Source: Pseudomonadota bacterium (GTDB taxonomy: Bacteria; Pseudomonadota; Gammaproteobacteria; Burkholderiales; Burkholderiaceae_C). From it: 64,000 nucleotides of DNA. The notes beneath the pieces are model-generated. The model was not told the origin of the DNA. It ran no database searches and worked only from the letters and a program-made list of their open reading frames with translations. The stretch spans positions 1 through 64,000 of the forward strand of contig JAKOZT010000073.1 in NCBI GenBank assembly GCA_029779845.1, written 5' to 3'. Below, piece by piece: positions 27,779-42,801 of this stretch (positions are counted from its first letter, which is position 1; each line of letters begins with the position of its first letter). The position numbers and the translations under genes were made by a program.

Positions 27779-28035
27779 GTGGCCGAGGTGCTGATGCTGG
27801 CCGGCGGCCCCGGCCCGGTGCGGCACTATCCGGCTCTCCAGGTGCAGCCCGACGCCACCCTCGCGGCGCTCGACGCGGCGCATCCCGAGGGAGCCGACTG
27901 CCCGTTCGTGACCACCGTGCGTTCGCCGCGTCGCCCTCGGCCGTCGTGGCGGCCAACGGCGAGCGCGGCACGGAGGTGGTTGCGATGCAGCTCGAGTACC
28001 CCGCAAGCGTTGCGCGACCGACAGCGTTTGAGTGA
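27779..28035 (+). pseudogene. Decayed coding remnant, possibly DJ-1/PfpI-like
   Basis: No intact gene fills 27769-28042. One frame reads protein-like sequence (GPGPVRHYPALQVQPDATLA, then HPEGADCPF) up to about 27920; it then turns into Arg/Pro-rich shadow sequence while the next frame continues sensibly (SAVVAANGERGTEVVAMQLE) to a stop at 28033-28035. This suggests a frameshifted, probably also internally deleted gene with no start of its own. The first part recalls DJ-1/PfpI proteins (GPVR...PDATL...GADY), but this is a weak resemblance. The end overlaps the Fur-type box. Confidence 0.4.
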
Positions 28036-28054
28036 GAATTGATATTCATTCTCA
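28033..28054. promoter_or_regulatory. Fur-type iron box upstream of the FecI-like gene
   Basis: TGAGAAT-N8-ATTCTCA is a perfect inverted repeat with an AT-rich centre (TGATATTC), the form expected of Fur boxes of the GATAATGATAATCATTATC type, and a further TTCTC follows. It stands out from the surrounding high-GC DNA and lies directly upstream of the sigma factor-regulator-receptor genes, so iron-loaded Fur probably represses them. Confidence 0.8.
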
Positions 28055-28132
28055 TTCTCTACCATCATCAACCCGACCCCTCCCACCGTCGAGAACCTCT
28101 ACTGCGACCACCACGACTGGCTGCAGGGATGG

Positions 28133-28582
28133 TTGCGCCGCCGCCTGGGCAACGCGGCCGACGCCGCGGACCTGGCGCACGACACCTTCTTCCGGCTGCT
28201 CACCCGCTCATCGATCCCCGGCTTCGGCAGCTTCGTCGAGGCGCGTGCCTACCTGCGCACCATCGGCGGCGGCCTGTGCGTGGATCTGTGGCGCCGCCGT
28301 GAAGTCGAGCAGGCCTGGAGTGAAGCGCTGGCGGCGCTGCCCGAACCCGCCGCGCCGTCGCCGGAGCACCAGGCCATCGTCATCGAGACGCTGCTGGAGA
28401 TCGGCCGCATGCTCGGCCGGCTGTCGCAGAAGGCGGCGCGCGCCTTCGTGATGGCGCAGGTCGACGGCGTGCCCTACCGCGACATCGCCGCCGAGCTGGC
28501 CGTCTCCGAGCGCATGGTCAAGAAGTACATCGCGCAGGCCATGCTGCAGTGCGCCCTGATCGAAGCGGGCCTGGACAACTGA
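28133..28582 (+). CDS. FecI-like ECF sigma factor (start uncertain)
   Basis: The product is an iron-type ECF sigma-70 factor. Region 2 is visible (GNAADAADLAHDTFFRLL, RAYLRTIGGGLCVDLWRRRE) and region 4 (LSQKAARAFVMAQVDGVPYR, DIAAELAVSERMVKKYI). The first usual start codon is TTG 28133, giving 149 residues, but the frame is open upstream and reads NLYCDHHDWLQGWLRRR from 28094, the expected start of region 2 in FecI proteins. Real translation must therefore begin earlier, perhaps at one of two ATC codons (28064, 28067). No ATG or GTG exists there. FecR follows after 2 bases. Confidence 0.85.
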   Translation: MRRRLGNAADAADLAHDTFFRLLTRSSIPGFGSFVEARAYLRTIGGGLCVDLWRRREVEQAWSEALAALPEPAAPSPEHQAIVIETLLEIGRMLGRLSQKAARAFVMAQVDGVPYRDIAAELAVSERMVKKYIAQAMLQCALIEAGLDN

Positions 28583-28584
28583 GC

Positions 28585-29571
28585 ATGTTCTCCGCCAAGC
28601 CCAGCGTCGAAAGCCTGGAGCAGGCGGCGCAGTGGTACGCGACCCTGCGCGACGAACGCGCCGGCGAGCAGGACCGGCAGGCCTGGCGCTCCTGGCTCGC
28701 GCTGTCGCCCGAGAACGCCGACGCCTGGCGGTACATCGAAGCCGTCAGCCGCAAGTTCGATCCCTTGCGCGGCCACGGCCCGGGCGGTGCGGCTGCCGCG
28801 GTCAGCGCGGTGGAGGCCGCGCGGCCGGGCGGCGGCAGCCGGCGCCGCAGCATCGTCAACGGCCTGGCCGGCGCGCTCGGGCTGGGCCTCGCGGGCTGGC
28901 TGGGCTGGCGCCAGACGCCGCTGCCGGAACGGGTGGCCTCGTTGCGTGCCGACCATCGCACCGGCACCGGGCAGCGGCGCGAGCTGGTGCTGGCCGACGG
29001 CTCGCGCGTCTGGCTCAATACCGGCACCGCGCTGAACGTGAGCTACCACGCCGACGCGCGCCGGCTCAGCCTGCTGGCTGGCGAGATCCTCGTCGACACC
29101 GCGGCCGATGTGCAGCGGCGCCCGTTCTTCGTGGAGACCGGCTTCGGCCGGTTGCAGGCCCTGGGCACGCGCTTCACCGTGCGCCTGACCGAGCATCAGA
29201 CCCGGCTCGACGTGTTCGACGGCGCGGTCGAGATCCGCACCCGCGCCGGCCGCAGCGGCCATGTGCCGGCCGGCCGCGCGGCGCACTTCGATGCCGACGG
29301 CATCGCGCCCCTGACGGCCAGCGACAGGCTCCGCGAAGCCTGGAGCAAGGGCCGCATCCCGGCCGACGACATGCCGCTGGGCGCCTTGCTGGAAGAACTG
29401 GGCCGCTACCGCCCCGGCCACATCAGCGTGGCGCCCGAGGTGGCCGGCCTCAAGGTGATGGGTGTCTACCCCGCCGACGACAGCGACCGCGCGCTGGCCA
29501 TGCTGGAGCAGAGCCTGCCGATCCGCGTGCGCCGCACGCTGCCGTGGTGGGTCACCGTCGAAGCCCGCTGA
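28585..29571 (+). CDS. FecR-like anti-sigma/signal-transducing membrane protein
   Basis: The 328-residue protein passes the receptor's signal from periplasm to the sigma factor. The N-terminal cytoplasmic part has SLEQAAQWYATLRDERAGEQ and the WLALSPENADAWRYIE motif (DUF4880). A transmembrane helix lies around residues 95-112 (IVNGLAGALGLGLAGWLGW). The periplasmic FecR domain follows: RRELVLADGSRVWLNTGTAL, LAGEILVDTA and RLQALGTRFTVR; a C-terminal STN-like tail (ADDMPLGALLEELGRYRPGH) ends the protein. ATG 28585 comes 2 bases after the sigma gene stop. Confidence 0.93.
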   Translation: MFSAKPSVESLEQAAQWYATLRDERAGEQDRQAWRSWLALSPENADAWRYIEAVSRKFDPLRGHGPGGAAAAVSAVEAARPGGGSRRRSIVNGLAGALGLGLAGWLGWRQTPLPERVASLRADHRTGTGQRRELVLADGSRVWLNTGTALNVSYHADARRLSLLAGEILVDTAADVQRRPFFVETGFGRLQALGTRFTVRLTEHQTRLDVFDGAVEIRTRAGRSGHVPAGRAAHFDADGIAPLTASDRLREAWSKGRIPADDMPLGALLEELGRYRPGHISVAPEVAGLKVMGVYPADDSDRALAMLEQSLPIRVRRTLPWWVTVEAR

Positions 29572-29743
29572 CGCGCGGGGCAAGAAGTTTTTCGCCGATC
29601 AGGTTCCCTTTTTTCGATCTCGTCCGGTTCGAGGATGAGAGGCGATCAGATCGGCGGCTGCCCCGGTGCTCACCGGCCGGCAGCGCAACGTCGGTTCGTC
29701 CGATGGTCGCCTCAAAACTCAAAAACTCCGAGGGCCACCATCC

Positions 29744-32242
29744 ATGTCTCGCCATGTCCGCTCCTTTCCGAACGTCGCGCTGCGCCCGGCCGTGCTGGCC
29801 GTGCAGCTGGCCGTGTCGGGCAGCCTGCTCGCCGCCGCGCTCTGGGCGCCGCAGGCGCACGCGCAAGCCGCTGCGGGGCAGGCTCGGCGCTACGACATTC
29901 CCGCCGGCTCACTCACGGCAGCCCTGAACCGCTTTGCGGAAGAAGCCGGTGTGTTCCTCTCTGCGCCCAATGAACTGGCCCAGGGCAAGAGCAGCGCGGG
30001 CTTGTCGGGCAGCTTCACGGTGGAGCAGGGCTTCGCCGAGCTGCTGCGCGGACAGGGGCTGGAAGCGGTGCAGCAGGCGGGCGGCACGTATGTGTTGCGC
30101 GCGCTGGCTTCTTCCGCGGTGGTGCCGGCCGCCGCGCCGCCGGCGAATCCCGTGGGCGAGAGCACCTTGCCGGCCGTGCGGGTCCGGGCCACCGCCGAGC
30201 GCTCGCCGAACGAGTTGCCGGCGGCGTATGCGGGCGGCAAGGTCGCGCGCGGCGGGGGCATCGGCATGCTCGGCAACAAGGACGTGATGGACACGCCGTT
30301 CGCGCAGACCAGCTACACGGCGCAACTGATCGAGGACACCCAGGCGCGCACCATCGCCGACGTGCTGAAGAACGACGCCTCGGTGGTCATCACCGCGCCC
30401 AGCAACAGCGGCTGGGAGGCCGCGCAGTCGCGCGGCTTCTCGATCGGCGACAGCAGCGATTCGACCTCGTTCAACGGGCTCTACGGCATCCTGCCCTACT
30501 ACACCATCGACGTGAGCATGGCCGAGCGGGTGGAGGTCTTCAAGGGGCCGAGCGCACTGCTCAACGGCATGCCCATGTCGAACTCCACGGGCGGCTCGCT
30601 CAACATCGTCAGCAAGCGCGCGCAGGACGAGCCCGGCGCGCAGATCGTGCTGGGCTACGCCTCGGAATCGCAGGGCACGGCCACCGTCAACGCCGGCCGC
30701 CGCTTCGGCGAGAGCAAGCAGCTGGGCGTCCATTTCAACGGCAGCTACCGCGACGGCGAGGGCGCCATCAGCCCGAGCAAAGACAAGTTCACCTCCGCGA
30801 TGCTCGGGCTCGACCTGCGGCTGAACGACCGCGCCCGGCTCTCGGCGGACGTCGGCTATCAGAAGCGCGAACTGGCCGGGCCCAACCGCCCCTTGTTCCT
30901 GGCCGCGGGTGTCGATGCGCCCGACGCCGTTCCCACCAACAAGAAGAGCTACCTTCCCTCGTGGCTGGAGTGGAACGACGAAACCACCTTCGGCATGCTG
31001 CGCGGCGAGTTCGACATCGCCGACAACCTGTCGGCCTACGTGGCTTACGGCGCGGCGCGCTTCCAGGGGCTCGACATCTTCATGAACCCCGTGCTGCAGA
31101 ACGCGGCGGGTGATTTCAACGCGACGCCGAGCGGCGACGGCAAGGGCTGGGGCTACGACACGCGCTCCGGCGTGGCGGGGTTGCGCTTCCTGTTCGGCAC
31201 CGGCCCCGTGCAGCACACGGTCAACCTCAACTACAGCGACATCCACCGCGACAACCTCAATGCCGTTGCGCAAGGCAACGCCACGGCCATCACCTCCAAC
31301 ATCTACGCCCCGGCCGATCTCGTGCGGCCCACGTGGACCTCGGGCCCGCAATACAAGAGCGGCGAGTCGGACCGTTCGAGCCTCGGCATTTCCGACACGC
31401 TGTCGATGCTGGACGACAACCTGCAGTTCACCGTAGGCGCGCGCAACCAGAAGGTTGCCAGCCGCTCCTTCACCGCCGCGGGCGCGCTCAATGGCGTGCC
31501 GTATTCGAGCAAGGTGTGGAGCCCGGCCTTCACGGTGCTCTACAAGCCGTCGGACAGGGTGTCGGTGTACGCCAACTACATCGAGGGCCTGCAGCCCGGC
31601 CGAGTGGTGGGCAACACCTACAACAACGAGGGCGAGGTCTTCCCGCCCTACAAATCCAGGCAATACGAGGCGGGTGCGAAGTTCGACTTCAGCGAGCGCC
31701 TGCTGGCCAGCCTCAGCGCCTACCAGATCAAGCAGCCGAACACGCTGACCCTTCCCACGCAGCCCAAGCCGACACTGGTGCTCGATGGCGAGCAGCGCAA
31801 CCGCGGCGTCGACTTCAGCGTCGCCGGCGAGCCGGTCAAGGGCACGCGCATCACCGGCGGCGCGTCGTACCTCGACGCCCGGCTGACGAAAACGCAGGGC
31901 GGCCTGACCGACGGCAGGCAGGCCATCTCCGCGTCGAAATGGAAGTTCGTGCTGGCGGGCGACTGGGATGCCGGCTTCCTGCCCGGCCTGGCGCTGAGCG
32001 CCCGCGTGCGCTGGGTCGACAAGGCCTACATCGACGCCACGAACACCTTCGACGTGGCGGCCTACACGCTGTGGGACGCCGGGCTGCGCTACCGCTTCCA
32101 GCCGCCGTTCGGTCGCGCCGTGGTCGCGCGGCTGAACGTGGACAACCTGCTCGACAAGAACTTCTGGATGGCCTACGGCAACGGCGGCGTCATCCAGCCC
32201 ACGCCGCGCACGGTCAAGTTGTCGGTGACCTTCGACTTCTGA
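29744..32242 (+). CDS. TonB-dependent siderophore receptor with STN signalling domain
   Basis: This 832-residue outer membrane receptor imports a ferric siderophore. A signal peptide ends at about residue 46 (PQAHAQ). The STN domain follows (YDIPAGSLTAALNRFAEEAG to about residue 120), which contacts FecR, so the receptor is a transducer. The plug begins DTPFAQTSYTAQLIEDTQAR near residue 185, and the 22-strand barrel ends with the aromatic KLSVTFDF. It resembles the FpvA/FoxA/FhuE class. ATG 29744 starts the signal peptide. A 171-bp gap without a recognisable terminator separates it from fecR; an ECF-type promoter there is plausible but I cannot define one. Confidence 0.95.
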   Translation: MSRHVRSFPNVALRPAVLAVQLAVSGSLLAAALWAPQAHAQAAAGQARRYDIPAGSLTAALNRFAEEAGVFLSAPNELAQGKSSAGLSGSFTVEQGFAELLRGQGLEAVQQAGGTYVLRALASSAVVPAAAPPANPVGESTLPAVRVRATAERSPNELPAAYAGGKVARGGGIGMLGNKDVMDTPFAQTSYTAQLIEDTQARTIADVLKNDASVVITAPSNSGWEAAQSRGFSIGDSSDSTSFNGLYGILPYYTIDVSMAERVEVFKGPSALLNGMPMSNSTGGSLNIVSKRAQDEPGAQIVLGYASESQGTATVNAGRRFGESKQLGVHFNGSYRDGEGAISPSKDKFTSAMLGLDLRLNDRARLSADVGYQKRELAGPNRPLFLAAGVDAPDAVPTNKKSYLPSWLEWNDETTFGMLRGEFDIADNLSAYVAYGAARFQGLDIFMNPVLQNAAGDFNATPSGDGKGWGYDTRSGVAGLRFLFGTGPVQHTVNLNYSDIHRDNLNAVAQGNATAITSNIYAPADLVRPTWTSGPQYKSGESDRSSLGISDTLSMLDDNLQFTVGARNQKVASRSFTAAGALNGVPYSSKVWSPAFTVLYKPSDRVSVYANYIEGLQPGRVVGNTYNNEGEVFPPYKSRQYEAGAKFDFSERLLASLSAYQIKQPNTLTLPTQPKPTLVLDGEQRNRGVDFSVAGEPVKGTRITGGASYLDARLTKTQGGLTDGRQAISASKWKFVLAGDWDAGFLPGLALSARVRWVDKAYIDATNTFDVAAYTLWDAGLRYRFQPPFGRAVVARLNVDNLLDKNFWMAYGNGGVIQPTPRTVKLSVTFDF

Positions 32243-32281
32243 CGACGCTGCACGGCCCGGCCGGCAAGCGCGCACAGCGAC

Positions 32282-33928
32282 ATGAAGGACCACTTTCGCC
32301 AGAGCATGGCATGGCTGCACACCTGGGCCGGGCTGGTCGCGGCCTGGGTGCTGTTCTTCATCTTCGTCACCGGCTCAGCGGGCTACTTCAACACCGAGAT
32401 CGACCGCTGGATGCGGCCGGAGCTGCCGCTGGCGCAGCCGACGACGCTGTCCCCCGCCGACGCGGTGGCGCTGGCGCAGCGCTACCTGCAGTCCGTGGCC
32501 GGCGGCGCGCAGGAGTTCAGCATCAACCTGCCGGTCGATCGCGGCAATACGCGGTTGAACGTGTGGTGGCGCGCGCAGCCGGCCGCCGGCCAGCGCTTCG
32601 GCCAGCTCACGCGGCAGACGCTGGACGACGCCGGGGCGCCCGTGGCCGCGCCGAAGGTGCGCGCCACCGGCGGCGGCAATCAGCTCTACCGCATGCACTA
32701 CCGGCTGCGCTACATGAGCCTCGACGCCGCCCGCTACGCGGTGGGCGTGTGCACGATGCTGATGCTGCTGGCGCTGGTCAGCGGCGTCATCGTGCACAAG
32801 AAGATCTTCGCCGACTTCTTCACCTTCCGCCCGGGCAAGGGCCAGCGCAGCTGGCTGGACGCGCACAACGTGGTCAGCGTGCTCGCGCTGCCGTTCTTCG
32901 TGATGATCACCTACAGCGGCCTGGTGTTCTTCCTGTTCGATTACGTGCCGGCCGGCCTGCAGGCGGGCATGGAGGGTCGGCGCGATGCGTTCTTCGAACA
33001 GATCTCGCCGCGCCAGGGGCCGGCCGCGCCCGGCGGCGTGGCGGCGCCGCTGGCGCCCTTGGAGCGCATGGTGCGGCAGGCCGAAGCCGCCTGGGGCGCG
33101 GGCGAGGTCGGCCGCATCACCGTCGCGCAGCCGGGCGATGCGCTGGCCTGGGTGACGGTGCATCGCCGCCCGGGGCGCAGCGTCACCGGCGCCGGCAACG
33201 ACCGGCTGCATTTCGATGGCGTCAGCGGCCGGCCGCTGCCGGCGCCGGCCGTGCGCGACAGCGGCAGCCGCAGCACGCGCGACGTGCTGCTCGCGCTGCA
33301 CGAAGGCCGCTTTGCCGGCGTCGGCCTGCGCTGGCTGTACTTCGCTTCGAGCCTGCTGGGCTGCGCGATGATCGCCACGGGTCTGGTGCTGTGGACCGTC
33401 AAGCGCCGGCGCGACCAGGAGAAGCGCCTGAAGGCCGGGCAGTCGGTAGCCTTCGGCTTCCGGCTGGTGGAGGTGCTGAACATCGGCACGATCGCCGGCC
33501 TGTGCACCGCGGTGGCGGCGTTCTTCTGGGCCAACCGGCTGCTGCCGGCGGGACTCGACAGGCGCGCGGACTGGGAATTCCACTGCCTGTTCATCATCTG
33601 GGGACTCGCGCTGCTGCATGCCGCGCTGCGCCTGCGCTTCGCGCCTTCGCGGCGCGTGTGGCGCGAGCAGCTCTGGCTGGCCTGCGCGGCCTTCGGCCTG
33701 CTGCCGCTGCTCAATGCCCTCACCACCGATCGGCACCTGGGCGTGACGCTGCCGGCCGGCGACTGGGTGCTGGCCGGTTTCGACCTGACGATGCTGGCGC
33801 TGGGCGCGGTCTTCGCGCTGATGGCATCGAAGCTGCGGCGCACGCAGGCCGCGCCGCGGCCCGCATCGCAGGGCCGCGATGCGCTGCCGGCCGAGGCCGC
33901 CGCGCTGCCGGCCGGGGGTACCCGCTGA
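32282..33928 (+). CDS. PepSY-type inner membrane protein, copy 1 (probable siderophore-iron reductase)
   Basis: The 548-residue protein has the PepSY-associated TM architecture: an N-terminal helix (WLHTWAGLVAAWVLFFIFV), a periplasmic loop, helices around VGVCTMLMLLALVSGVIVHK and VLALPFFVMITYSGLVFFLF, a second loop, and four to five C-terminal helices. Conserved His residues at membrane edges (LHTW, VHKK, DAHN) could hold heme. Relatives such as FpvG of Pseudomonas reduce ferric siderophores in the periplasm. It lies 39 bases after the receptor. A paralogue is encoded at 34579-36186 with long identical stretches. The reductase role is inferred from family and context. Confidence 0.85.
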   Translation: MKDHFRQSMAWLHTWAGLVAAWVLFFIFVTGSAGYFNTEIDRWMRPELPLAQPTTLSPADAVALAQRYLQSVAGGAQEFSINLPVDRGNTRLNVWWRAQPAAGQRFGQLTRQTLDDAGAPVAAPKVRATGGGNQLYRMHYRLRYMSLDAARYAVGVCTMLMLLALVSGVIVHKKIFADFFTFRPGKGQRSWLDAHNVVSVLALPFFVMITYSGLVFFLFDYVPAGLQAGMEGRRDAFFEQISPRQGPAAPGGVAAPLAPLERMVRQAEAAWGAGEVGRITVAQPGDALAWVTVHRRPGRSVTGAGNDRLHFDGVSGRPLPAPAVRDSGSRSTRDVLLALHEGRFAGVGLRWLYFASSLLGCAMIATGLVLWTVKRRRDQEKRLKAGQSVAFGFRLVEVLNIGTIAGLCTAVAAFFWANRLLPAGLDRRADWEFHCLFIIWGLALLHAALRLRFAPSRRVWREQLWLACAAFGLLPLLNALTTDRHLGVTLPAGDWVLAGFDLTMLALGAVFALMASKLRRTQAAPRPASQGRDALPAEAAALPAGGTR

Positions 33929-34236
33929 TGCGCCGGCGTGCGATGCCCTCTGCCCGCCGGCGCTGGACGGTGGCCAGCCGCGTGCTCGCCGCGGCGATCG
34001 GCGGTTATGCGCTGACCTCGCTGCTCACCGCCGACCTCGCCTTGCTGCTGCCGCGCGTTGCCGGCACGTTGCCGGCCGAGGGTGTGCTCGCCGCCACGCT
34101 GTGGAGCTTCGCGCTGTACACCGCCGTCGTGCTGTGGGTGTTCGCCACGCGCAGCGCCACCCGCGCCTGGACGGGGCTGGGCGTCGCCGGCGCGGTGGCT
34201 GGCCTGGCCTTCGCCGCGCTGAAGGGCTGGCCGTGA
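33928..34236 (+). CDS. DUF3649 small membrane protein, copy 1
   Basis: The 102-residue protein contains the DUF3649 pattern: SRVLAAAIGGYALTSLLTAD, then LWSFALYTAVVLWVFATRSA and TRAWTGLGVAG, forming three transmembrane helices. The start ATG 33928 overlaps the preceding stop (TGATG), and its own stop overlaps the next start (GTGA), so it is tightly coupled in the iron operon. The family is found almost only beside PepSY proteins in siderophore loci and has no known biochemical role. An accessory subunit of the reductase is the likely function. Confidence 0.85.
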   Translation: MRRRAMPSARRRWTVASRVLAAAIGGYALTSLLTADLALLLPRVAGTLPAEGVLAATLWSFALYTAVVLWVFATRSATRAWTGLGVAGAVAGLAFAALKGWP

Positions 34237-34571
34237 ACACCGTGCCGATCGCCTTGGTCGCCCTGGCGCTGAGCTACGCCGGCATGGTCGCGCTGAGCCT
34301 GGCGATGGATCGGCATCACGGGCAGGTTCTTGCGGGCCGCGCGCTGCCGGGCCGGTTGCGCATCGCATGGCGCGTCGCGGGCGCGCTGTTGCTGGCCTGC
34401 GCCTTGTGGGCCTGCATGGCCGCATGGGGGGCCGGCATCGGCGCCGTGGCGTGGACGGGCCTGCTGAACGCGGCCGCGCTGGTGCTGGCCTGTCTGTTGT
34501 CGTACCTGCCGCGCTGGGTATTGCGTGCCGCCGTGGGCCTGGCGGCGCTTGCCTTCTTCTTTCCGAACTGA
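34233..34571 (+). CDS. DUF3325 small membrane protein, copy 1
   Basis: This 112-residue protein has four hydrophobic segments and the DUF3325 opening ALVALALSYAGMVALSLAMD followed by RHHGQVLAGR and WRVAGALLLACALWACMAAWG. GTG 34233 overlaps the DUF3649 stop. It completes the three-gene set PepSY-DUF3649-DUF3325, and 7 bases later the second PepSY gene begins. The family travels with siderophore uptake genes and is of unknown function. The second copy in this operon is fused to another domain. Confidence 0.85.
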   Translation: MNTVPIALVALALSYAGMVALSLAMDRHHGQVLAGRALPGRLRIAWRVAGALLLACALWACMAAWGAGIGAVAWTGLLNAAALVLACLLSYLPRWVLRAAVGLAALAFFFPN

Positions 34572-34578
34572 ACCGACC

Positions 34579-36186
34579 ATGAAAGAGCATTTCCGACAGA
34601 GCATGGCCTGGCTGCACACCTGGGCCGGTCTGGTCGTGGGGTGGCTGCTGTTCTTCGTCTTCGTGATGGGAACGGGCGCCTACTTCAAGGACGAGATCAC
34701 GCGCTGGATGGAGCCCGAGCGGCCCTTGCGCGCGTTCGGCGCCGCGTATCCGCCCGATGCCGCGATGGCCGAACTGGCGCTCGACCACCTCGTTCGGCAG
34801 CCGGGCCGCAGCGAGCAGTGGGTGGTCCGGCTGCCCAACGACGGCCAGCGCGCCGGCAACAACGATCGGCGCGGCGACACCAGGGGGCTGATGGTGGCCA
34901 GCGACGTGCTGGGCGAGGTCGAACTCGATCCGCGCACCGGCGTCGAGGTTGCACCGGTACAGGTGCGCGACACCGAAGGCGGCGACGTCTTCAGGAGCAT
35001 GCACTATCAGCTGCACTACATCGACGCGAGCCTCGGCGAATACATCGCCGGCGCCTGCGCGATGCTGATGCTGCTGGCCTGCGTGACCGGCGTGATCGTG
35101 CACAAGAAGATCTTCGCCGACTTCTTCACCTTCCGCCCCGGCAAGGGCCAGCGCTCGTGGCTGGATGCGCACAACGTCATCAGCGTGATGGCGCTGCCGT
35201 TTTTCCTGATGATCAGCTACAGCGGGCTGATGCTGCTGCCCAGCGTCTACATGCCGCTGCCGGAGATGGCGGTGTACGGCACGCAGCGCGCGGACCACCT
35301 GCGCTTCAACGCGCAGCTGCTCCAGCGCCGCGAACACGAGCCGGTGTCGCGCCCCACGGTGCCGATGACGCGCGTGCTCGATCAGGCCGATCGTGTGCTG
35401 GGTCCCGGGGGAGGGCGCAGCATCGTGGTGTCTCGCGTGCAGGGCGAGCCCCTGTCGATCACGGTCGCGCGCGACTGGGGCACCGAGCTGCCGATCACCA
35501 ACAACGCGCAGACCAAGCTGCGCTTCGATGCCGGCACCGGCGAGCGCCTGCCGGTCGACGTCGACGGGCCGGGCCTGCAGGGCACGCGCTGGATGGCCGC
35601 ACTGCACTTCGGCTGGTTCGCCAACGCCGGCCTGCGCTGGCTGTACGTCGTCTGCGGCCTGCTGGGCTGCGCGATGATCGCCACCGGGCTGGTGCTGTGG
35701 ACCGTCAAGCGCCGCACGAAGCACGACGGCGCCTTCGCCGGCCTGCGGTTGGTGGAGGTGCTGAACGTCGGCACGCTGGCCGGCCTGCCGCTCGGCGTGG
35801 CCGCATTTTTCTGGGCCAACCGGCTGCTGCCCGTCGAGATGGCCGCTCGCGCCGAGTGGGAGCAGCACCTGCTGTTCCTCGGCTGGGGCTGGGCCTGGAT
35901 CTACGCGCTGCTGCGGCCGCTGAAGGCCGCCTGGCTGGAACTGCTGGCGCTGGCCGCCGCCGCGTATGCGCTGCTGCCGCTGGTCAACGCGCTGACCACC
36001 GAGCGCCACCTGGGCGTGACGCTGCCGGCCGGCGACTGGGTGCTGGCCGGCTTCGACCTGACGATGCTCGGCCTGGGCGCGGCCTTCGCGCTCACGGCCG
36101 TGAAGCTGTACCGCCAGTGGGTGACGCCGCATGCGTCGCCGCTGCGCCGGCACAGCGCTGTCGTGACGCCGGAGGTGACGCCATGA
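34579..36186 (+). CDS. PepSY-type inner membrane protein, copy 2
   Basis: The 535-residue protein has the same layout as the one at 32282: N-terminal helix in HFRQSMAWLHTWAGLVVGWL, periplasmic loop, VHKKIFADFFTFRPGKGQRS after the second helix, a large second loop and several C-terminal helices ending LTAVKLYRQW. Its loops (residues about 50-150 and 230-330) differ strongly from copy 1, while membrane parts are nearly identical. This points to duplication with divergence of the periplasmic side, possibly for different substrates or successive steps. ATG 34579 gives a normal N-terminus; the stop overlaps the next start (ATGA). Confidence 0.85.
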   Translation: MKEHFRQSMAWLHTWAGLVVGWLLFFVFVMGTGAYFKDEITRWMEPERPLRAFGAAYPPDAAMAELALDHLVRQPGRSEQWVVRLPNDGQRAGNNDRRGDTRGLMVASDVLGEVELDPRTGVEVAPVQVRDTEGGDVFRSMHYQLHYIDASLGEYIAGACAMLMLLACVTGVIVHKKIFADFFTFRPGKGQRSWLDAHNVISVMALPFFLMISYSGLMLLPSVYMPLPEMAVYGTQRADHLRFNAQLLQRREHEPVSRPTVPMTRVLDQADRVLGPGGGRSIVVSRVQGEPLSITVARDWGTELPITNNAQTKLRFDAGTGERLPVDVDGPGLQGTRWMAALHFGWFANAGLRWLYVVCGLLGCAMIATGLVLWTVKRRTKHDGAFAGLRLVEVLNVGTLAGLPLGVAAFFWANRLLPVEMAARAEWEQHLLFLGWGWAWIYALLRPLKAAWLELLALAAAAYALLPLVNALTTERHLGVTLPAGDWVLAGFDLTMLGLGAAFALTAVKLYRQWVTPHASPLRRHSAVVTPEVTP

Positions 36187-36476
36187 GCATGTCTCTTCGC
36201 TACCGGCTCGCGGTGACCTCGCGCGTGCTGGCCGCCGCGGTGGGCGGCTACGCGCTGACGGCGGCCATCGGCACGCTGCTGTCTCTGCTGATCCCGATGG
36301 AGCGCGCGCAGGCGGTCGAGACGGGCACGTTCCTGAGCTTCGCCGTCTACGCGGCGATCCTGTGCTGGGTCTTCCACGTGCGCAGCGCAACACGCGCCTG
36401 GGCCTGGCTCGTGGCCTGGACGCTGGCGGTGTCGGCGCTGTGCGGGTGGCTGCTGCGCCACGGGGGTGCCGCATGA
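36183..36476 (+). CDS. DUF3649 small membrane protein, copy 2
   Basis: The 97-residue protein repeats the DUF3649 pattern (TSRVLAAAVGGYALTAAIGT, SFAVYAAILCWVFHVRSATR, AWAWLVAWTLAVSAL) with three helices. It is clearly paralogous to the copy at 33928, and each follows its own PepSY gene, so the modules were duplicated as a unit. ATG 36183 overlaps the preceding stop and its stop overlaps the following ATG 36473, giving unbroken translational coupling. Confidence 0.85.
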   Translation: MSMSLRYRLAVTSRVLAAAVGGYALTAAIGTLLSLLIPMERAQAVETGTFLSFAVYAAILCWVFHVRSATRAWAWLVAWTLAVSALCGWLLRHGGAA

Positions 36477-37306
36477 TCCCGCTGCTGTCTTTCTGGTGGT
36501 ACGCGCTGGTGCTGCTGCTGGGCCTGGCCGGCTTCGCGCTGCTGGCGCTGGCCAGCGAACGCGAGGGCGCGCTGCTGCTGGGCCGCGTGCCCGGCGCCCG
36601 CGAGCGCAGGCGCTACCGGCTGCTCGGCTGGCCGCTGCTGGCAGCGGGCCTGTGGCTGGGCATCGAGCGCTGGGGCGGCGAGTACGGCCCGGTGCTGTGG
36701 CTGGGCGTGCTGGCCGTCGCCGGCGTGGCGCTGGTGTTCGCGATGCCGTGGCGGCCCTGGGGCCCGAAGCGGGCCGCGCGCCGCCGGGCCGTGCCTGCGC
36801 AGCCCGCCGCGCAGGCAGCGCCGTCGCGCGGGCGGCGTGCCGCCCAGGCGCTCGGGCTCGCCGCGTTGATCGGCCTGCCGCTGGCGGTGGGCCGCGCGCT
36901 GCACGAGGCGCCGCTGCACCCGCTGCTGCGCGCCGACGCGCTGCACGCGCAGGTCGGCCCCTGGCCGTTCACGCTGGCCGAAGAAGAGGTGGCGCCGCCC
37001 GAGACGTCGCCGAGCGGCGTGCCGGTCAAGGCCTTCGTGCTGCGCTTCTGCCCGACCTGCGACGCCCACATCCGCACCGCCTACCTGAAGTGGCGCGAGC
37101 CCCACCCGCCGCATTCGCTCGGCAACCCCTTTCGCGGCCAGCACTGGGAGCGCCTGTCGGCCGTGCAGTTGCAGCCCGGCCTCGTGCCGCGCGACCGGCT
37201 CTGGCTCACCGTGGTCGGCAAGGACGGCAGCACCCACCAGCTCGCGCTCGACGTGGCGCGCATCGCGCCGGCGACGGCGCGCTTCATCGAGGAGTCTTCG
37301 CGATGA
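36473..37306 (+). CDS. DUF3325-like membrane protein fused to a Cys-containing extra domain
   Basis: The 277-residue protein begins like DUF3325 (SFWWYALVLLLGLAGFALLA, then GARERRRYRLLGWPLLAAGL) with three to four helices up to about residue 95. A basic linker and another helix (AQALGLAALIGLPLAVGRAL, residues about 122-143) follow, then a soluble domain of 130 residues, predicted to face the periplasm. This domain contains FCPTCDAHIRTAYLKW, a CxxC pair that could bind metal or act in redox, and LVPRDRLWLTVVGKDGSTHQ. I do not recognise the extra domain. It replaces the plain DUF3325 of the first module and is coupled to neighbours on both sides. Confidence 0.8.
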   Translation: MIPLLSFWWYALVLLLGLAGFALLALASEREGALLLGRVPGARERRRYRLLGWPLLAAGLWLGIERWGGEYGPVLWLGVLAVAGVALVFAMPWRPWGPKRAARRRAVPAQPAAQAAPSRGRRAAQALGLAALIGLPLAVGRALHEAPLHPLLRADALHAQVGPWPFTLAEEEVAPPETSPSGVPVKAFVLRFCPTCDAHIRTAYLKWREPHPPHSLGNPFRGQHWERLSAVQLQPGLVPRDRLWLTVVGKDGSTHQLALDVARIAPATARFIEESSR

Positions 37307-37671
37307 CGGCAACGAAGGCGACGCGGGGGCTGGCCCTCGCGCTGGCGGCGCTGTGCGCCTCGGCCGCCGTGCGGGCGCACAGCGCGGCCAACGAGCTGAT
37401 CGTGGTCTGCACCTGCTGGAACGAGCCCGGGCGCGAGCTGGCATGCCAGGGCGGCTACTCGCTGTTCAAGGACGATGTGCCGCGCGACGCGCGCTTCGAG
37501 GTGCGCGACTACGCCGGCAGGCTGCTGGCCTCGGCGCCGGCCGACGGCCGCGGCCGGGTGCGCTTCAAGCGCCCCGAGGGCGAGTTCTACGTGCTCTTCG
37601 CCGGCCCGAGCGGCTACACCGCCGAGGTGGACTGGCGCGACATCGACGCCACGCGGCCCGCGCGGCGATGA
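37303..37671 (+). CDS. Small exported Cys-containing protein of the iron operon
   Basis: The 122-residue protein has a signal peptide (hydrophobic residues 8-24, cleavage near AVRAHS). The mature part begins ELIVVCTCWNEPGRELACQG with three close Cys residues, then has a beta-rich segment (ARFEVRDYAGRLLASAPADG, FKRPEGEFYVLFAGPSGYTA) resembling carboxypeptidase-regulatory or DUF4198-type beta sandwiches. A periplasmic metal or siderophore chaperone is possible but unproven. It overlaps both the preceding and the following genes (ATGA at each end), so it belongs to this operon. Confidence 0.75.
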   Translation: MTATKATRGLALALAALCASAAVRAHSAANELIVVCTCWNEPGRELACQGGYSLFKDDVPRDARFEVRDYAGRLLASAPADGRGRVRFKRPEGEFYVLFAGPSGYTAEVDWRDIDATRPARR

Positions 37672-38849
37672 GCGGCGCTCGATCGGGATCCTGGCCCTAC
37701 GCCGCGCTGGCACTGGCCGCGCTGGGTGCGGCGCTGTGGTGGGGCTTCTTCCGCGTCGTCGAGCGCGTGCAGACCGAGCCCGTGCGCCGCGGCAGCATAG
37801 AGAACGCCGTCACCGCGCTGGGCGTGCTGCAGCCGCAGCGCTATGTCGACGTGGGCGCGCAGGTTTCGGGCCAGATCCGGCGCATCGCGGTGAAGCCCGG
37901 CGACAAGGTGGCCCAGGGCGAGCTGCTGCTGGAGATCGACCCCTCGCTGCAGCAGGCCAAGGTGCAGACCGACCGCGCCACGCTGGCCAGCCTGCGCGCG
38001 CAGCTCGCCGAGCAGGAGGCCCAGCGCGACCTCGCGCGCCAGCAGGCCGAGCGCCAGCAGCAGATGGCCGCCGAGGGTTCCACGCGGCTGGAAGACGTGC
38101 AGACCGCGCAGGCCGGCCTGCGCGTCGCCCAGGCGCGCATCGACAGCCTGAAGGCGCAGATCGAAGGCGCGCAGTCCACGCTGGCCGGCAACGAGGCGCT
38201 GCTCGGCTACACGCGCATCTACGCGCCGATCGCCGGCACGGTGGTGACGCTCGATGCGCGCGAGGGCCAGACGCTGAACGCGACCTACCAGACGCCCAAC
38301 GTGATGCGCATCGCCGACCTGTCGCGCATGACGGTGTGGACGGAGGTCTCCGAGGCCGACGTCGGCCGCGTGCGCACCGGCATGCCGGTGTACTTCACCA
38401 CGCTGGGCCTGCGCGATGCGGCCGGCCAGGCGCGCCGCTGGCAGGGCACGCTGCGCCAGGTGCTGCCCGCGCCGCCGAGCGGCCCCGGCGCCGTGCCGGC
38501 CGGCGGCGCGAATGCAGGCTCCAGCGGCAAGGTCGTGCTCTACACCGCGCTGTTCGACGTGGACAACGCCGACGGCGCGCTGATGCCGCAGATGAGCGCG
38601 CAGGTGTTCTTCGTCGCCGCGGCGGCGCGCGACGTGCTGGTGGCGCCGCTGGCCGCGCTCGAGCCCGCCGGCGGCGAGGCGGGCCGCTTCACGGCCAGGG
38701 TGCTGGCCGGCGACGAGGTGCAGTCGCGCGAGGTGCGCATCGGCGTGCGCGACCGGCTGCTCGGCGAGGTGCTGCAGGGGCTGGAGGAGGGCGATCGGCT
38801 CGTCACCGGCATCCAGCGCGAGCAGGCGTCGCGGAGGCTGCGGTGGTAG
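37668..38849 (+). CDS. MacA/PvdR-type periplasmic adaptor
   Basis: The 393-residue membrane fusion protein has one N-terminal helix (WPYAALALAALGAALWWGFF), the lipoyl part VDVGAQVSGQIRRIAVKPGD, a long Gln/Ala-rich coiled-coil hairpin (residues about 100-180), and YTRIYAPIAGTVVTLDAREG followed by the beta-barrel. These are features of MacA. Placed next to a MacB-type transporter and an outer membrane factor inside a siderophore locus, it most resembles PvdR of the PvdRT-OpmQ siderophore exporter. The assignment of substrate is inference. It overlaps the next gene by 7 bases. Confidence 0.9.
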   Translation: MSGARSGSWPYAALALAALGAALWWGFFRVVERVQTEPVRRGSIENAVTALGVLQPQRYVDVGAQVSGQIRRIAVKPGDKVAQGELLLEIDPSLQQAKVQTDRATLASLRAQLAEQEAQRDLARQQAERQQQMAAEGSTRLEDVQTAQAGLRVAQARIDSLKAQIEGAQSTLAGNEALLGYTRIYAPIAGTVVTLDAREGQTLNATYQTPNVMRIADLSRMTVWTEVSEADVGRVRTGMPVYFTTLGLRDAAGQARRWQGTLRQVLPAPPSGPGAVPAGGANAGSSGKVVLYTALFDVDNADGALMPQMSAQVFFVAAAARDVLVAPLAALEPAGGEAGRFTARVLAGDEVQSREVRIGVRDRLLGEVLQGLEEGDRLVTGIQREQASRRLRW

Positions 38850-40816
38850 CGGCGAACGAGCCCGACATCCCGCCCTTGATCGAACTGCACGGCCTGCGCA
38901 AGTCCTACGGCGGGCAGGGCGGCGAGCCGAGCGTGGAGGTGCTGCACGGAATCGACCTGGCGATCCATGCCGGCGAGTTCGTCGCCATCGTCGGCGCCTC
39001 GGGCTCGGGCAAGTCGACGCTGATGCACATCCTCGGCTGCCTGGACCGGGCCAGCGCGGGCACGTACCGCTTCGCCGGACAGGACATCTCGGCGTTCGGC
39101 GCCGACGAGCTGGCCTGGCTGCGCCGCGAGGCCTTCGGCTTCGTGTTCCAGGGCTACCACCTGATCCGCACGCTGGACGCGAGCCACAACGTGCAGGTGC
39201 CGGCCGTCTATGCGGGCACGCCTGCCGAGTCGCGCCGCGAGCGCGCCCAGGCCTTGCTGGAACGGCTGGGCCTGGGCGATCGCGCCGGCCACCGACCCGG
39301 CCAGCTCTCGGGCGGGCAGCAGCAGCGCGTGTCGATCGCACGCGCGCTGATGAACGGCGGCCACGTGATCCTCGCCGACGAGCCCACCGGCGCGCTCGAC
39401 AGCCGCAGCGGCACCGAGGTGATGGCGCTGCTGCGCGAGCTGGCGGACGCGGGCCACACCATCATCGTGATCACCCACGATGCGCAGGTGGCGGCGCAGG
39501 CGCGGCGCGTCGTGCGCATCAGCGACGGGCGCATCGTCGAAGACCGGGCCGGCGAACCGGCGGCGGGCGTGGCCGCGCCTTCGCTCGATGCGCGGCACTT
39601 CATGGCGCGCATGGCGCGCGGCGTGGCGCACAGCGCCTCGTGGTGGGTCGACGCGCGCGAGGCGCTGGGCAGTGCGTGGCGCACGCTGTGGGTGAGCCGC
39701 TTCCGCACCATGCTGACGCTGCTGGGCATCGTGATCGGCGTGGCCTCGGTGATCGTGCTGATGGCCGTCGGCCAGGGCACCAGCGAGCAGACGCTGCAGA
39801 AGATGGCCGCCTTCGGCGACACGCACCGCATGTCGATCCGCCCCGACACCTACGGCACGCGCGGCCTGCGCGGCGTGCTGACCGAAGCCGACGTGCGGCT
39901 GGTGGCCGAACTGCCCAACGTGGACATCGCGATGCCCTTCCTGACCGGCGGCGCGATGCTGCGCGCCAACGGCACCGACTCGTCCACCGCGCTGTGGTCC
40001 ATGGGCCACCAGGGCACGCGGCTCTTCAACTGGCAGCTCGCGCGCGGCGTGTTCTTCTCCGCCGAGGACGAAGCGAACATCGCCACGGTGGCGGTGCTGG
40101 GCAGCGCGGCCAGCGAGCGCTTTTTCGCGGGGCGCAGCCCGGTGGGCGACTACGTGCTGCTCGACAGCGTGCCGTTTCGCGTGATCGGCGAGCTGGCGCA
40201 AACCGGCGAGCCCGAGGGCGACAACCTGGTGGCCATTCCGTTCTCGACGGCCAGCCGCCGCGTGCTGGGCACGCGCCATCCCGGGCTGATCCAGGTGAAG
40301 GTGCACGAGCCGGAGCGCATCGGCCGCACGGTGGCCGAGGTGACGGCGGCGCTGACCGAAGCGCACGGGCTGAAGGATTTCGCCATCGCCAACAACCCGG
40401 CGCGCGTGCGGCAGCACAACGAGGCGACGCGCCAGCAAAGCCTGCTGCTCGCGCTGATCGCCGGCATCTCGCTGGTGGTGGGCGGCATCGGCATCATGAA
40501 CATCATGCTGATGGCGGTGAAGGAGCGCACCCGCGAGATCGGCATCCGCATGGCCACCGGCGCGCGCCAGCGCGACATCCAGCGCCAGTTCCTCACCGAG
40601 GCGGTGCTGGTGTCGCTGGTCGGCGGCGTGGCGGGCGTGGCGATCGGCCTGGCCATCGGCGTGGCGCTGATCTACGCGGCCGTGCCGGTGATCTTCTCGA
40701 TCCGCGCGATGGGGCTGGCCTTCGGCTGCGCGGTGGCCACCGGCCTGGTCTTCGGCCTCATGCCTGCGCGGCAGGCCTCGCGGCTCGATCCGGTCGTGGC
40801 GCTGGCGGGGGAGTGA
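38843..40816 (+). CDS. MacB/PvdT-type ABC exporter (fused ATPase and permease)
   Basis: The 657-residue protein starts with an ABC ATPase: IVGASGSGKSTLMHIL (Walker A, about residue 48), LSGGQQQRVSIARAL (signature) and VILADEPTGALDSRSG (Walker B). Then comes the MacB architecture: one helix (TMLTLLGIVIGVASVIVLMA, about residue 295), a large periplasmic domain and three C-terminal helices (LLLALIAGISLVVGGIGIMN). GTG 38843 has GCGGAGG upstream; no ATG fits better. It is a mechanotransmission exporter acting with the adjacent adaptor and outer membrane channel. In this locus a siderophore or its metal-free form is the likely cargo; macrolide export is less likely. Confidence 0.92.
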   Translation: MVAANEPDIPPLIELHGLRKSYGGQGGEPSVEVLHGIDLAIHAGEFVAIVGASGSGKSTLMHILGCLDRASAGTYRFAGQDISAFGADELAWLRREAFGFVFQGYHLIRTLDASHNVQVPAVYAGTPAESRRERAQALLERLGLGDRAGHRPGQLSGGQQQRVSIARALMNGGHVILADEPTGALDSRSGTEVMALLRELADAGHTIIVITHDAQVAAQARRVVRISDGRIVEDRAGEPAAGVAAPSLDARHFMARMARGVAHSASWWVDAREALGSAWRTLWVSRFRTMLTLLGIVIGVASVIVLMAVGQGTSEQTLQKMAAFGDTHRMSIRPDTYGTRGLRGVLTEADVRLVAELPNVDIAMPFLTGGAMLRANGTDSSTALWSMGHQGTRLFNWQLARGVFFSAEDEANIATVAVLGSAASERFFAGRSPVGDYVLLDSVPFRVIGELAQTGEPEGDNLVAIPFSTASRRVLGTRHPGLIQVKVHEPERIGRTVAEVTAALTEAHGLKDFAIANNPARVRQHNEATRQQSLLLALIAGISLVVGGIGIMNIMLMAVKERTREIGIRMATGARQRDIQRQFLTEAVLVSLVGGVAGVAIGLAIGVALIYAAVPVIFSIRAMGLAFGCAVATGLVFGLMPARQASRLDPVVALAGE

Positions 40817-40821
40817 GGGAG

Positions 40822-42150
40822 ATGCCCAGGCGTGTGGCGATGCTCTCGATGCTGGCCGCGCTGCTGACGGCGGCGTGCGCGAGCCCGGCGCCGACGATGC
40901 CGGCGCCGCCTGCGGCTTCGGCGGACATCGCTCGCGATGATTGGCAGGCCTTCGGCAGCGAGGAACTGAGCGCGCTGGTGCAGGCCGCGCTCGCGCAGAA
41001 CCAGGACGTGGCCGCCGCCGTGGCGCGCGTTCATCGCGCCGAAGCCTCGGCGCGCATGGCCGGCGCGGAGCTGCTGCCGGGGCTGAACGCCAGCGTGAAT
41101 GCCGGCCACGAAGCCCGCCTCGGTGGCCACGCCGCCGTGGATGGCAACGGCTTCGGCGCCCGTCTCTTTGCCAGCTACGAAGTCGATCTGTGGGGCCGGC
41201 TGCGGGCCGGCCGCGACGCAACGCGCGCCGCGCTGCAGGCGAGCGAGTTCGAGCGCGACGCGGTGCGGCTCACGGTGGCCTCGGGCGTCGCCGGCGCCTG
41301 GCTGCAGGCCGTGGCTTGCGTGGAACGCCAGGGCCTCGCGCAGCGCAATCTGGAGACGGCCGAGCGCCTGCTGGCGTTGGTGGAATCGCGCGCACGCGCC
41401 GGTGCCGCCAACCCGTTGGAGCTGACCCAGCAGCGGGGGCTGGTGGCGAGCCAGCGGCAGGCGCTGGCCGCGCTGCGCCAGCAGGCCGAGGCGGCACGCA
41501 CCGCGCTGGCGCTGCTGCTGGGGCGGGCCGAAGGCGTTTCCGTGGCCACCACGTCGCTGGACGGCCTGCGCCTGCCTTCGGTGCAGGCCGGCGTGCCGCC
41601 GGCATCGCTGAGCCGCCGTCCCGACATCGCCAGCGCCGAGGCCCGCCTCGCCGCGGCCGATGCCGACGTGGCCGCCGCGCGCGCGGCCATGCTGCCCGGC
41701 CTGTCGCTGAGCGCGGCCATCGGCACGGGGGGCGACCGGCTGCGCCGCGTGCTCGACAACCCGGTGTATTCGCTCGCCGCCGCGCTGGCGGCGCCGATCT
41801 TCGACGGCGGCCGCCTGGCGGCCGGCCGCGACCTGGCGCTCGCGCAGCGCGAGGAATTGCTGGCGTCCTACCGGCAGGCCATCGTCGCCGCCTTCGCCGA
41901 CGTGGAAGTGGCGTTCAACGCCATCGCCCGCCTTGACGAACAGGCCGCGGCGCAGGCCGAAGCGCTGGCTCAGGCCCGGCGTGCGCTGACCCTGGCCGAG
42001 AGCCGCTACCGCGCCGGCGCCGAAACGCTGCTGGTGCTGCTCGACGCGCAGCGCACGGTGACCGTGGCGCAAGACCTGAGCGTGCAGATCAGGCTGGCGC
42101 GCCTGCAGGCGGGCGTGTCGCTGTACCGCGCGCTGGGTGGGCCTATGTAG
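40822..42150 (+). CDS. Outer membrane factor lipoprotein (OprM/NodT/OpmQ type)
   Basis: The 442-residue channel has a lipoprotein signal with lipobox LTAAC (Cys about residue 19), and two copies of the efflux-protein domain. Typical segments are FASYEVDLWGRLRAGRDATR in the first half and SLSRRPDIASAEARLAAADA and APIFDGGRLAAGRDLALAQR in the second. It is the usual partner of adaptor and ABC or RND exporters, here MacA/MacB-like ones immediately upstream (5 bases). GAGGGAG precedes ATG 40822. It is the last gene of the iron locus; the next gene pair, a toxin-antitoxin module, starts 37 bases on. Confidence 0.92.
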   Translation: MPRRVAMLSMLAALLTAACASPAPTMPAPPAASADIARDDWQAFGSEELSALVQAALAQNQDVAAAVARVHRAEASARMAGAELLPGLNASVNAGHEARLGGHAAVDGNGFGARLFASYEVDLWGRLRAGRDATRAALQASEFERDAVRLTVASGVAGAWLQAVACVERQGLAQRNLETAERLLALVESRARAGAANPLELTQQRGLVASQRQALAALRQQAEAARTALALLLGRAEGVSVATTSLDGLRLPSVQAGVPPASLSRRPDIASAEARLAAADADVAAARAAMLPGLSLSAAIGTGGDRLRRVLDNPVYSLAAALAAPIFDGGRLAAGRDLALAQREELLASYRQAIVAAFADVEVAFNAIARLDEQAAAQAEALAQARRALTLAESRYRAGAETLLVLLDAQRTVTVAQDLSVQIRLARLQAGVSLYRALGGPM

Positions 42151-42153
42151 ACT

Positions 42154-42164
42154 AGACTTGGTCT
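42154..42164. promoter_or_regulatory. Small inverted repeat before the toxin-antitoxin pair
   Basis: AGACTTGGTCT (arms AGAC/GTCT) lies 23 bases before the antitoxin ATG and just after the outer membrane factor stop. Phd/YefM antitoxins bind short palindromes in this position, so it is a candidate autoregulatory operator. The match is short and could occur by chance. Confidence 0.4.
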
Positions 42165-42187
42165 GAGCGTGCCAGCGGAGGTCGAAC

Positions 42188-42424
42188 ATGGAAACCATCA
42201 ACATCTACGACGCCAAGACCCGGCTGTCCCAACTGGTGGACAAGGCCGCCGCGGGCGAAGACGTGGTGGTCAGCCGCAACGGCAAGCCGCTGGTGCGCAT
42301 CACGCGGCTGGAAGCGCCGCGCCGCCGCATCCGCTTCGGCGTGCTCAAAGGCAGGCTGACCATCCCCGCCGATTTCGACGCGTCCCTGCCCGAAGACGTC
42401 TTGAAGAGCTTCGAAGGGCGCTGA
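42188..42424 (+). CDS. Type II antitoxin, Phd/YefM family
   Basis: The 78-residue protein has the Phd/YefM N-terminal DNA-binding fold: INIYDAKTRLSQLVDKAAAG followed by EDVVVSRNGKPLVRITRL. The C-terminal third (DFDASLPEDVLKSFEGR) is the toxin-wrapping tail. GGAGG lies 7 bases before ATG 42188. The stop overlaps the toxin start (TGATG), the usual arrangement for coordinated production with antitoxin first. Likely autoregulated. Confidence 0.93.
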   Translation: METINIYDAKTRLSQLVDKAAAGEDVVVSRNGKPLVRITRLEAPRRRIRFGVLKGRLTIPADFDASLPEDVLKSFEGR

Positions 42425-42801
42425 TGCGGCTGCTGCTGGACACGCACGTCTTCCTGTGGGCCGTGGCCGGCTCGGCTTCGCTGAAGCCGGCGGCGCGGCG
42501 GCTCATCGAGGAAGCCGAGGAGGTCTACGTGTCGGCCGCGTCGATCTGGGAGATCGCCATCAAGGCGCGCCTGGGCAAGCTGAAGGCGGACCCCACCGAA
42601 CTGGCCGCGGCCATCGCTCCGAGCGGCTTCCTGGAGCTTCCCGTCAGCGCGGCGCACGCGGCGCGCGTGGCTTCGCTCGAACGCCACCACGACGATCCGT
42701 TCGACCGGCTGCTGATCGCCCAGGCGCTGACCGAGCCGCTGCGGCTGATGACCGTCGACAAGGCGCTGGCGCCGTACAGCGACCTCGTTCTTCTCGCCTG
42801 A
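42424..42801 (+). CDS. Type II toxin, VapC-like PIN-domain ribonuclease
   Basis: The 125-residue PIN-domain protein has the acidic active-site pattern: LLLDTHVFLWAV (first Asp at residue 6), ASIWEIAIKARLGKL (Glu about residue 43) and HHDDPFDRLLIAQALTE (Asp about 93-97), ending LMTVDKALAPY with another Asp. This subgroup pairs with Phd-type antitoxins and cleaves RNA, often tRNA. It is coupled to the antitoxin gene. Intact catalytic residues suggest an active toxin. Confidence 0.93.
   Translation: MRLLLDTHVFLWAVAGSASLKPAARRLIEEAEEVYVSAASIWEIAIKARLGKLKADPTELAAAIAPSGFLELPVSAAHAARVASLERHHDDPFDRLLIAQALTEPLRLMTVDKALAPYSDLVLLA

Follow-up and report, generated by a model that had tools for sequence, protein, structure and literature searches.

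The stretch of DNA analyzed here, 64,000 nucleotides long and referred to as the window, carries a run of 13 genes, all on the + strand (28,064-42,150; from 28,033 with its Fur-like box), that combines parts for siderophore sensing and uptake with predicted iron-release and export functions. We propose that this run takes up a foreign ferric siderophore, frees the iron reductively and pumps the empty siderophore out through an exporter resembling PvdRT-OpmQ; we put the probability of this reading at roughly one in two. A preliminary description of the sequence had already suggested a machine for foreign siderophores. The suggestion is favored by the kind of exporter, by the FoxB-like fold of the PepSY proteins and by the 12 of 24 related genomes that lack both of the synthesis domains searched for, and is weakened by nonribosomal peptide synthetase (NRPS) genes in the organism's own genome and by the 15 of 21 related loci without a channel gene. 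The draft genome from which the window comes has 4.77 Mb in 159 contigs and is 94% complete; the window is its contig 94. Below, L, G and C numbers denote loci, genomes and contigs, respectively.

Organization of the Locus

The genes form a single head-to-tail locus that overlaps for the most part from 32282 onward, as the preliminary description had stated. Pfam and NCBIfam give the order extracytoplasmic function (ECF) sigma factor, FecR, TonB receptor with an STN domain, PepSY_TM protein, DUF3649, DUF3325, second PepSY_TM protein, second protein in the DUF3649 position, DUF3325 fused to a CxxC domain, small Cys protein, MacA, MacB and a NodT-type channel (Table 1). Of the seven junctions from the first PepSY_TM gene to MacA, six are overlaps of 1 or 4 bases and the other is a gap (in order, -1, -4, +7, -4, -4, -4 and -4). 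Upstream, the gaps measure 2 bases between sigma and FecR, 172 between FecR and the receptor, and 39 between the receptor and the first PepSY_TM gene. The MacA-MacB junction is -7 if MacB starts at GTG 38843 and +26 if it starts at TTG 38876, and the MacB-channel junction is +5; both spacings vary with the start that is chosen.

The two PepSY/DUF3649/DUF3325 modules described earlier hold for both PepSY_TM and both DUF3325 proteins. The second DUF3649 protein is recognized only by its 51-60% identity with the proteins at the same position in three relatives (L031, L036 and L054); Pfam gave only a sub-cut-off DUF1304 match for it. The small Cys protein is present as described, but the count has to be corrected to two Cys-bearing proteins, as the second DUF3325 carries a fused CxxC domain.

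Table 1. Features of the locus, with positions in the window
Feature	Position	Strand	Remark
Fur-like box (TGAGAAT...ATTCTCA)	28033..28059	+	overlaps the sole sigma-70-like promoter match in 27900-42500
ECF (FecI-like) sigma factor	28064..28582	+	Sigma70_r2 and r4_2
FecR-like anti-sigma factor	28585..29571	+	DUF4880 + FecR
TonB-dependent siderophore receptor with STN signalling domain	29744..32242	+	TIGR01783; PDB neighbours FemA, BauA
PepSY_TM protein 1, predicted periplasmic ferri-siderophore reductase	32282..33928	+	PepSY_TM, FoxB fold
DUF3649 small membrane protein, copy 1	33928..34236	+	Pfam
DUF3325 small membrane protein, copy 1	34233..34571	+	Pfam
PepSY_TM protein 2	34579..36186	+	PepSY_TM; 50% identity with protein 1
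DUF3649-position protein, copy 2	36183..36476	+	same-position likeness in L031, L036, L054
DUF3325-CxxC fusion	36473..37306	+	
CxxC domain of the fusion, residues 150-277	36920..37303	+	possible metal acceptor
Small protein, two Cys	37303..37671	+	signal-like N terminus (by eye); Cys38 and Cys48 invariant in 4
MacA-type periplasmic adaptor, PvdR-like	37668..38849	+	
MacB-type ATP-binding cassette (ABC) exporter, PvdT-like	38843..40816	+	start GTG 38843 or TTG 38876
NodT/OpmQ-type outer membrane channel	40822..42150	+	

Exporter

The identification of the MacA-MacB-outer-membrane-factor set as being of the PvdRT-OpmQ kind is supported. Its nearest characterized relative, the PvdRT-OpmQ trio of P. 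protegens (L134), shares 56% identity in MacA, 52% in MacB and 50% in the channel. L134 is the one Pseudomonas locus that was typed, and PvdP, PvdN and PvdO score over the NCBIfam cut-offs in the flank beside its trio. An identity as macrolide MacAB was ruled out by scores under the NCBIfam equivalog cut-offs (256.2 against 342 bits for MacA, 624.7 against 966 bits for MacB).

Five aligned MacA proteins served as the query to collect relatives of the exporter, and the best 80 loci, 32 of them from Pseudomonas, were analyzed. An open reading frame with an NRPS condensation domain lies in the flank of six of these loci (L085, L086, L087, L091, L093 and L094). In L087 the exporter relatives stand beside an NRPS, a YqcI_YcgG protein and a thioesterase, a mix described for graminine siderophores (PMC6771848, PMC10849742). 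Since L134 is a pyoverdine locus and L087 is graminine-type, the exporter family is associated with no fewer than two types of siderophore chemistry.

Reductase Modules and Cys-Bearing Proteins

Both PepSY_TM domains score far over the gathering cut-off of 28.8 bits (209.3 and 219.8 bits). When the PepSY model was used for a fold search of the PDB, FoxB was the sole match with E < 0.001 (7.5e-9), the next reaching 0.65. His13, His139, His195 and His340 of the first PepSY_TM protein are invariant in 15 sequences, and His13 and His340 align with His in 7abw; the conserved His are candidate ligands for two hemes. The two proteins are predicted to be ferri-siderophore reductases of the FoxB/FpvG type.

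The CxxC domain of the DUF3325 fusion has a CrdA-like predicted fold and is possibly a metal acceptor. The small Cys protein matched no Pfam family over the cut-off. A small secreted-looking protein also precedes MacA in L124 (9260-9901), L127 (9213-9917) and L034 (8430-9077), and two of these three have weak DUF4198 matches, below the cut-off.

Sensing and Receptor

The Fur box of the preliminary description was confirmed: a search of the + strand of the whole window with the Fur consensus gave a single 14/19 match, at 28041, with 13 for the runner-up. The arms of the box are TGAGAAT at 28033 and ATTCTCA at 28048. In 34 of 45 scored loci, a Fur-like sequence precedes the sigma gene (p <= 0.05); the loci are related and non-independent, and some lack the exporter. 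Judged by gene content, the ECF sigma factor, FecR, the STN domain of the receptor and the Fur-like box make all the parts of FecI-FecR-FecA cell-surface signalling present. In 28043-28135, no ATG, GTG or TTG lies ahead of conserved region 2 of the sigma gene (from 28097), the first being the TTG at 28133; this could reflect a start at ATC 28064 or 28067 or a fault in the assembly.

The receptor reaches 356.8 bits against TIGR01783 (cut-off 223.5). Its nearest solved relative is FemA (8s34), followed by BauA, and likeness at this level does not reveal the ligand.

Recurrence in Relatives

The uptake-reduction-export locus is recurrent beyond chance, and the examples collected here are mostly from Betaproteobacteria, if the group is judged from organism names. 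Among the best 80 MacA loci, a PepSY gene with DUF3649 and/or DUF3325 lies on the MacA-MacB strand in 21 and divergently in 3. The channel gene is also present in six of the 21 (L080, L096, L100, L121, L122 and L127). The nearest of the 80 is L080, from Candidatus Accumulibacter sp. 66-26, with identities of 58% for sigma, 47% for FecR, 50% for the receptor, 61% for PepSY, 58% for DUF3649, 73% for MacA, 83% for MacB and 59% for the channel. In L082, L088, L117 and L118, sigma, FecR and receptor genes are followed by MacA, and no PepSY gene was found between them. In L117 (Pseudomonas citronellolis) the exporter stands amid three FecI-FecR-receptor sets, the middle one leading directly into MacA without PepSY.

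A search of 299 related genomes, the window's own included, found DUF3325 in 50, and in none of the 7 other genomes of the same genus. Of the 77 DUF3325 matches outside the window's own genome, 60 loci were examined. The exporter trio follows the reductase genes in four of them (L021, L029, L034 and L048), with 53-60% identity in the exporter; a fifth, L059, has it as a broken remnant, and 55 are reductase loci without an exporter, five of the 55 ending within 5 kb downstream. The pair formed by the CxxC protein and the small Cys protein stands behind reductase genes, without an exporter, in L031, L036 and L054; pair and exporter together were found in 0 of 140 other loci tested by tblastn. 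The window therefore looks like two modules joined. It is the most composite form of this locus among those examined, and its novelty lies in uniting two reductase modules that are separate in relatives, the second with the DUF3325-CxxC fusion.

Siderophore Synthesis Genes and Importers

No NRPS condensation (PF00668) or IucA/IucC (PF04183) domain was matched on the window's contig, and IucA/IucC had no match in the whole genome. Condensation domains lie on contigs C150, C135 and C2, with a weak seventh match on C85. The earlier statement that no NRPS gene or NRPS-independent siderophore synthetase (NIS) gene is present thus holds for the contig and fails for the genome. The same is true of the inner-membrane siderophore importer: the search for FecCD (PF01032), the sole importer family searched, found none on the window's contig and three genes on other contigs.

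By the preliminary description's own criterion, synthesis genes adjoining the locus throughout the family would have spoken against a foreign substrate. In the 21 loci with both reductase module and MacAB, flanking sequence of up to 10 kb showed no NRPS gene. Neither domain was matched in seven genomes from the DUF3325 search (PF00668 0/7, PF04183 0/7), namely G092, G153, G293 and G025 with an exporter, G142 with an exporter remnant, and G204 and G250, given as carriers of the CxxC module. From the best 80 MacA loci, 50 genomes were searched, the remainder being 28 Pseudomonas plus L131 and L142; PF00668 was matched in 35 and PF04183 in 5. The 21 genomes with module and MacAB divide into 11 with a condensation domain, one with IucA/IucC only (L104) and nine with neither. 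Among the 11, the match of L080 is weak (best E 5.4e-9) and L095 has a single match.

Adding G092, G153 and G025 gives a set of 24 genomes, in which G293 is the same as L100 (identical MacA) and counted once, and G142 is omitted as broken. Neither domain was matched in 12 of the 24, from five genera (6 Janthinobacterium, 2 Methylovorus, 1 Simplicispira and 3 genomes from two further genera), and in 5 of the 9 with a complete trio. Because several of the 12 share a genus, the independent cases are fewer than 12. These genomes favor a foreign siderophore as the substrate, with support limited to part of the family; the NRPS genes of the window's own genome count against it.

Proposed Mechanism

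We infer by analogy with known systems that the iron is released and the empty siderophore exported again. Low iron would relieve Fur repression, and the loaded receptor would signal through FecR to the sigma factor, as the box and the FecI/FecR/STN parts suggest. The receptor would carry the ferric siderophore into the periplasm. There, on the outer face of the inner membrane, the PepSY proteins and their DUF3649/DUF3325 partners are predicted to reduce Fe(III), like FoxB and FpvG, so that the siderophore would release its iron. More speculatively, the DUF3325-tethered CxxC domain and the small Cys protein might catch the metal or pass it on, and an importer encoded elsewhere would move it inward; metal capture by the tethered domain is a guess. 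The MacA-MacB-channel exporter would finally expel the intact desferri-siderophore, and one borrowed molecule could thereby be reused.

Evidence Against and Alternative Explanations

Several observations weigh against the uptake and re-export of a foreign siderophore. The window's genome contains one polyketide synthase (PKS)/NRPS cluster (C150) and two further NRPS loci, and an NRPS or NIS domain is encoded somewhere in each of the other 12 genomes of the 24; the synthesis searches covered the NRPS condensation and IucA/IucC routes. The channel gene was not detected in 15 of the 21 loci with module and MacAB (14 Janthinobacterium and L119), where a channel encoded elsewhere would have to serve. 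In L059 (8335-11724) the exporter is a broken remnant: MacA is interrupted by a stop, MacB is split and lacks its end, and little of the channel gene is left. L080, the nearest full relative, has no Fur-like box by the measure used above (10/19, p 0.485). In seven Janthinobacterium loci (L099, L103, L105, L107, L109, L112 and L114) that keep sigma, FecR, DUF3649, PepSY, DUF3325, MacA and MacB, no receptor gene was seen from FecR to DUF3649, and the receptor thus does not always accompany the exporter. The best fold match of the CxxC domain is a copper protein, and PepSY_TM proteins adjoining TonB receptors can serve copper, as described for CrpH.

The receptor in the Janthinobacterium loci looks like an exchangeable cassette. 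Sister strains have a receptor gene at the position that is empty in the seven.

The pump might be a safety valve that ejects toxic cargo (sideromycins, siderophore-drug conjugates) or surplus chelator entering via the receptor, without any gain from using the molecule again. MacB pumps export antibiotics besides siderophores. The PA4064-4065 MacB exporter of P. aeruginosa has been proposed to export pyochelin with excess cobalt (PMC11481552), and periplasmic iron release has been proposed to protect against sideromycins (PMC10866019). Reuse and disposal are not separated by the present data. However, the typed relatives of the exporter sit in pyoverdine and graminine-siderophore loci, and the macrolide MacA and MacB cut-offs were missed; we regard a safety valve as unlikely.

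Alternatively, the locus may recycle or export the organism's own siderophore, made by the C150 cluster or by another route. The PKS modules of C150 are followed by three NRPS modules, and half of the 24 family genomes have synthesis domains. The other half have neither domain, however, and none of the 25 receptor-plug matches in the window genome lies on C150, C135 or C2. The genome's only Lys_Orn_oxgnase match (25.8 bits, cut-off 21.3; on C157, beside a receptor gene) is a pyridine nucleotide-disulphide oxidoreductase adjoining a uroporphyrinogen-III methyltransferase and was rejected. Together with the lack of an IucA/IucC match, these results make a self-made siderophore distinctly improbable. 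The C150 cluster extends over ~14.5-51.3 kb and comprises a large PKS (KS-AT-DH-MT-ER-KR) and then a three-module NRPS, with TubC docking domains.

A cargo other than iron, such as copper on a chalkophore, would mean that Cu(II) is what the PepSY proteins reduce and that the CxxC domain acts as a copper chaperone. It is very unlikely in view of the Fur-like box, which recurs at p <= 0.05 in most of the scored, non-independent loci, the FecI/FecR pair, the siderophore-type receptor nearest to FemA and BauA, and the siderophore-kind exporter. That the exporter is an unrelated pump merely sharing the transcript agrees with the 55 of 60 reductase loci without an exporter and with the exporters of L082, L088, L117 and L118 without an intervening PepSY, but is hardly credible given the 4-base overlap into MacA, the same gene order in several genera and the homology to siderophore exporters.

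Relation to Known Systems

Siderophore recycling is known from producers, and the pyoverdine pathway uses sigma/anti-sigma sensing (FpvA/FpvI/FpvR), as here. That pathway (PvdRT-OpmQ, FpvGHJK-CDEF) also shares TonB uptake, reductive release of iron in the periplasm through a PepSY protein and its small partners, and re-export by a tripartite pump of the MacAB type (PMC6954188). The window differs in having all parts in one gene run, two PepSY proteins and no synthesis genes on the contig. In graminine (gramibactin-type) clusters such as L087, which share the exporter family, the host makes the siderophore; the PepSY/DUF3649/DUF3325 module was not found in L087. We know of no MacAB exporter in the femA-PA1909 locus of P. 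aeruginosa. There, a PiuB-type PepSY gene, PA1909, adjoins femA (PMC10866019), and the receptor of the window is nearest to FemA in the PDB.

Periplasmic reduction by PepSY proteins is the subject of work on FpvG, FoxB, FhuB and HiuB (PMC6954188, PMC10866019, PMC12424826, PMC13001220, PMC13038864). FoxA-FoxB, FhuA-FhuB (Burkholderia cenocepacia) and hiuABC (Caulobacter) likewise pair a xenosiderophore receptor with a PepSY reductase and have no adjoining ABC importer (PMC10866019, PMC12424826, PMC13001220). Unlike for the window, the cited sections describe no exporter in those loci. PA4063-PA4066 of P. aeruginosa resembles the window in pairing a MacB exporter with a separate metallophore importer, and differs in its split MacB, its Zur/zinc regulation and its export of a self-made siderophore (PMC11481552). 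We recognized no paper describing such a combined locus in a literature search, and one account notes that the efflux of xenosiderophores following their reduction in the periplasm still awaits investigation (PMC10866019).

In non-producers, the locus might even be a stand-alone recycling machine, although we hold this only tentatively: a neighbor's siderophore would be stripped, its metal placed on the tethered chaperone domain and the intact empty siderophore returned, so that the molecule is reused and the community pool is spared. If it is true that non-producers carry sensor, reductase and exporter as a unit, cheating need not consume the siderophore, and models of public-goods competition change. 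The cultured carriers with neither of the two synthesis domains searched for, Methylovorus (full trio), Simplicispira and several Janthinobacterium (MacAB), make xenosiderophore efflux directly testable.

Other Features

The window's genome has PepSY and DUF3325 genes once more at the edge of contig C78 (279-2641; L019), accompanied by a gene for a small membrane protein. A small gene pair between FecR and the receptor in L080 (3840-4650) and L082 (3986-4846) is one that we take to be a GNAT/DUF1778-type toxin-antitoxin. Immediately 3' of the locus, the window has a Phd/YefM antitoxin and PIN toxin pair (42188-42801).

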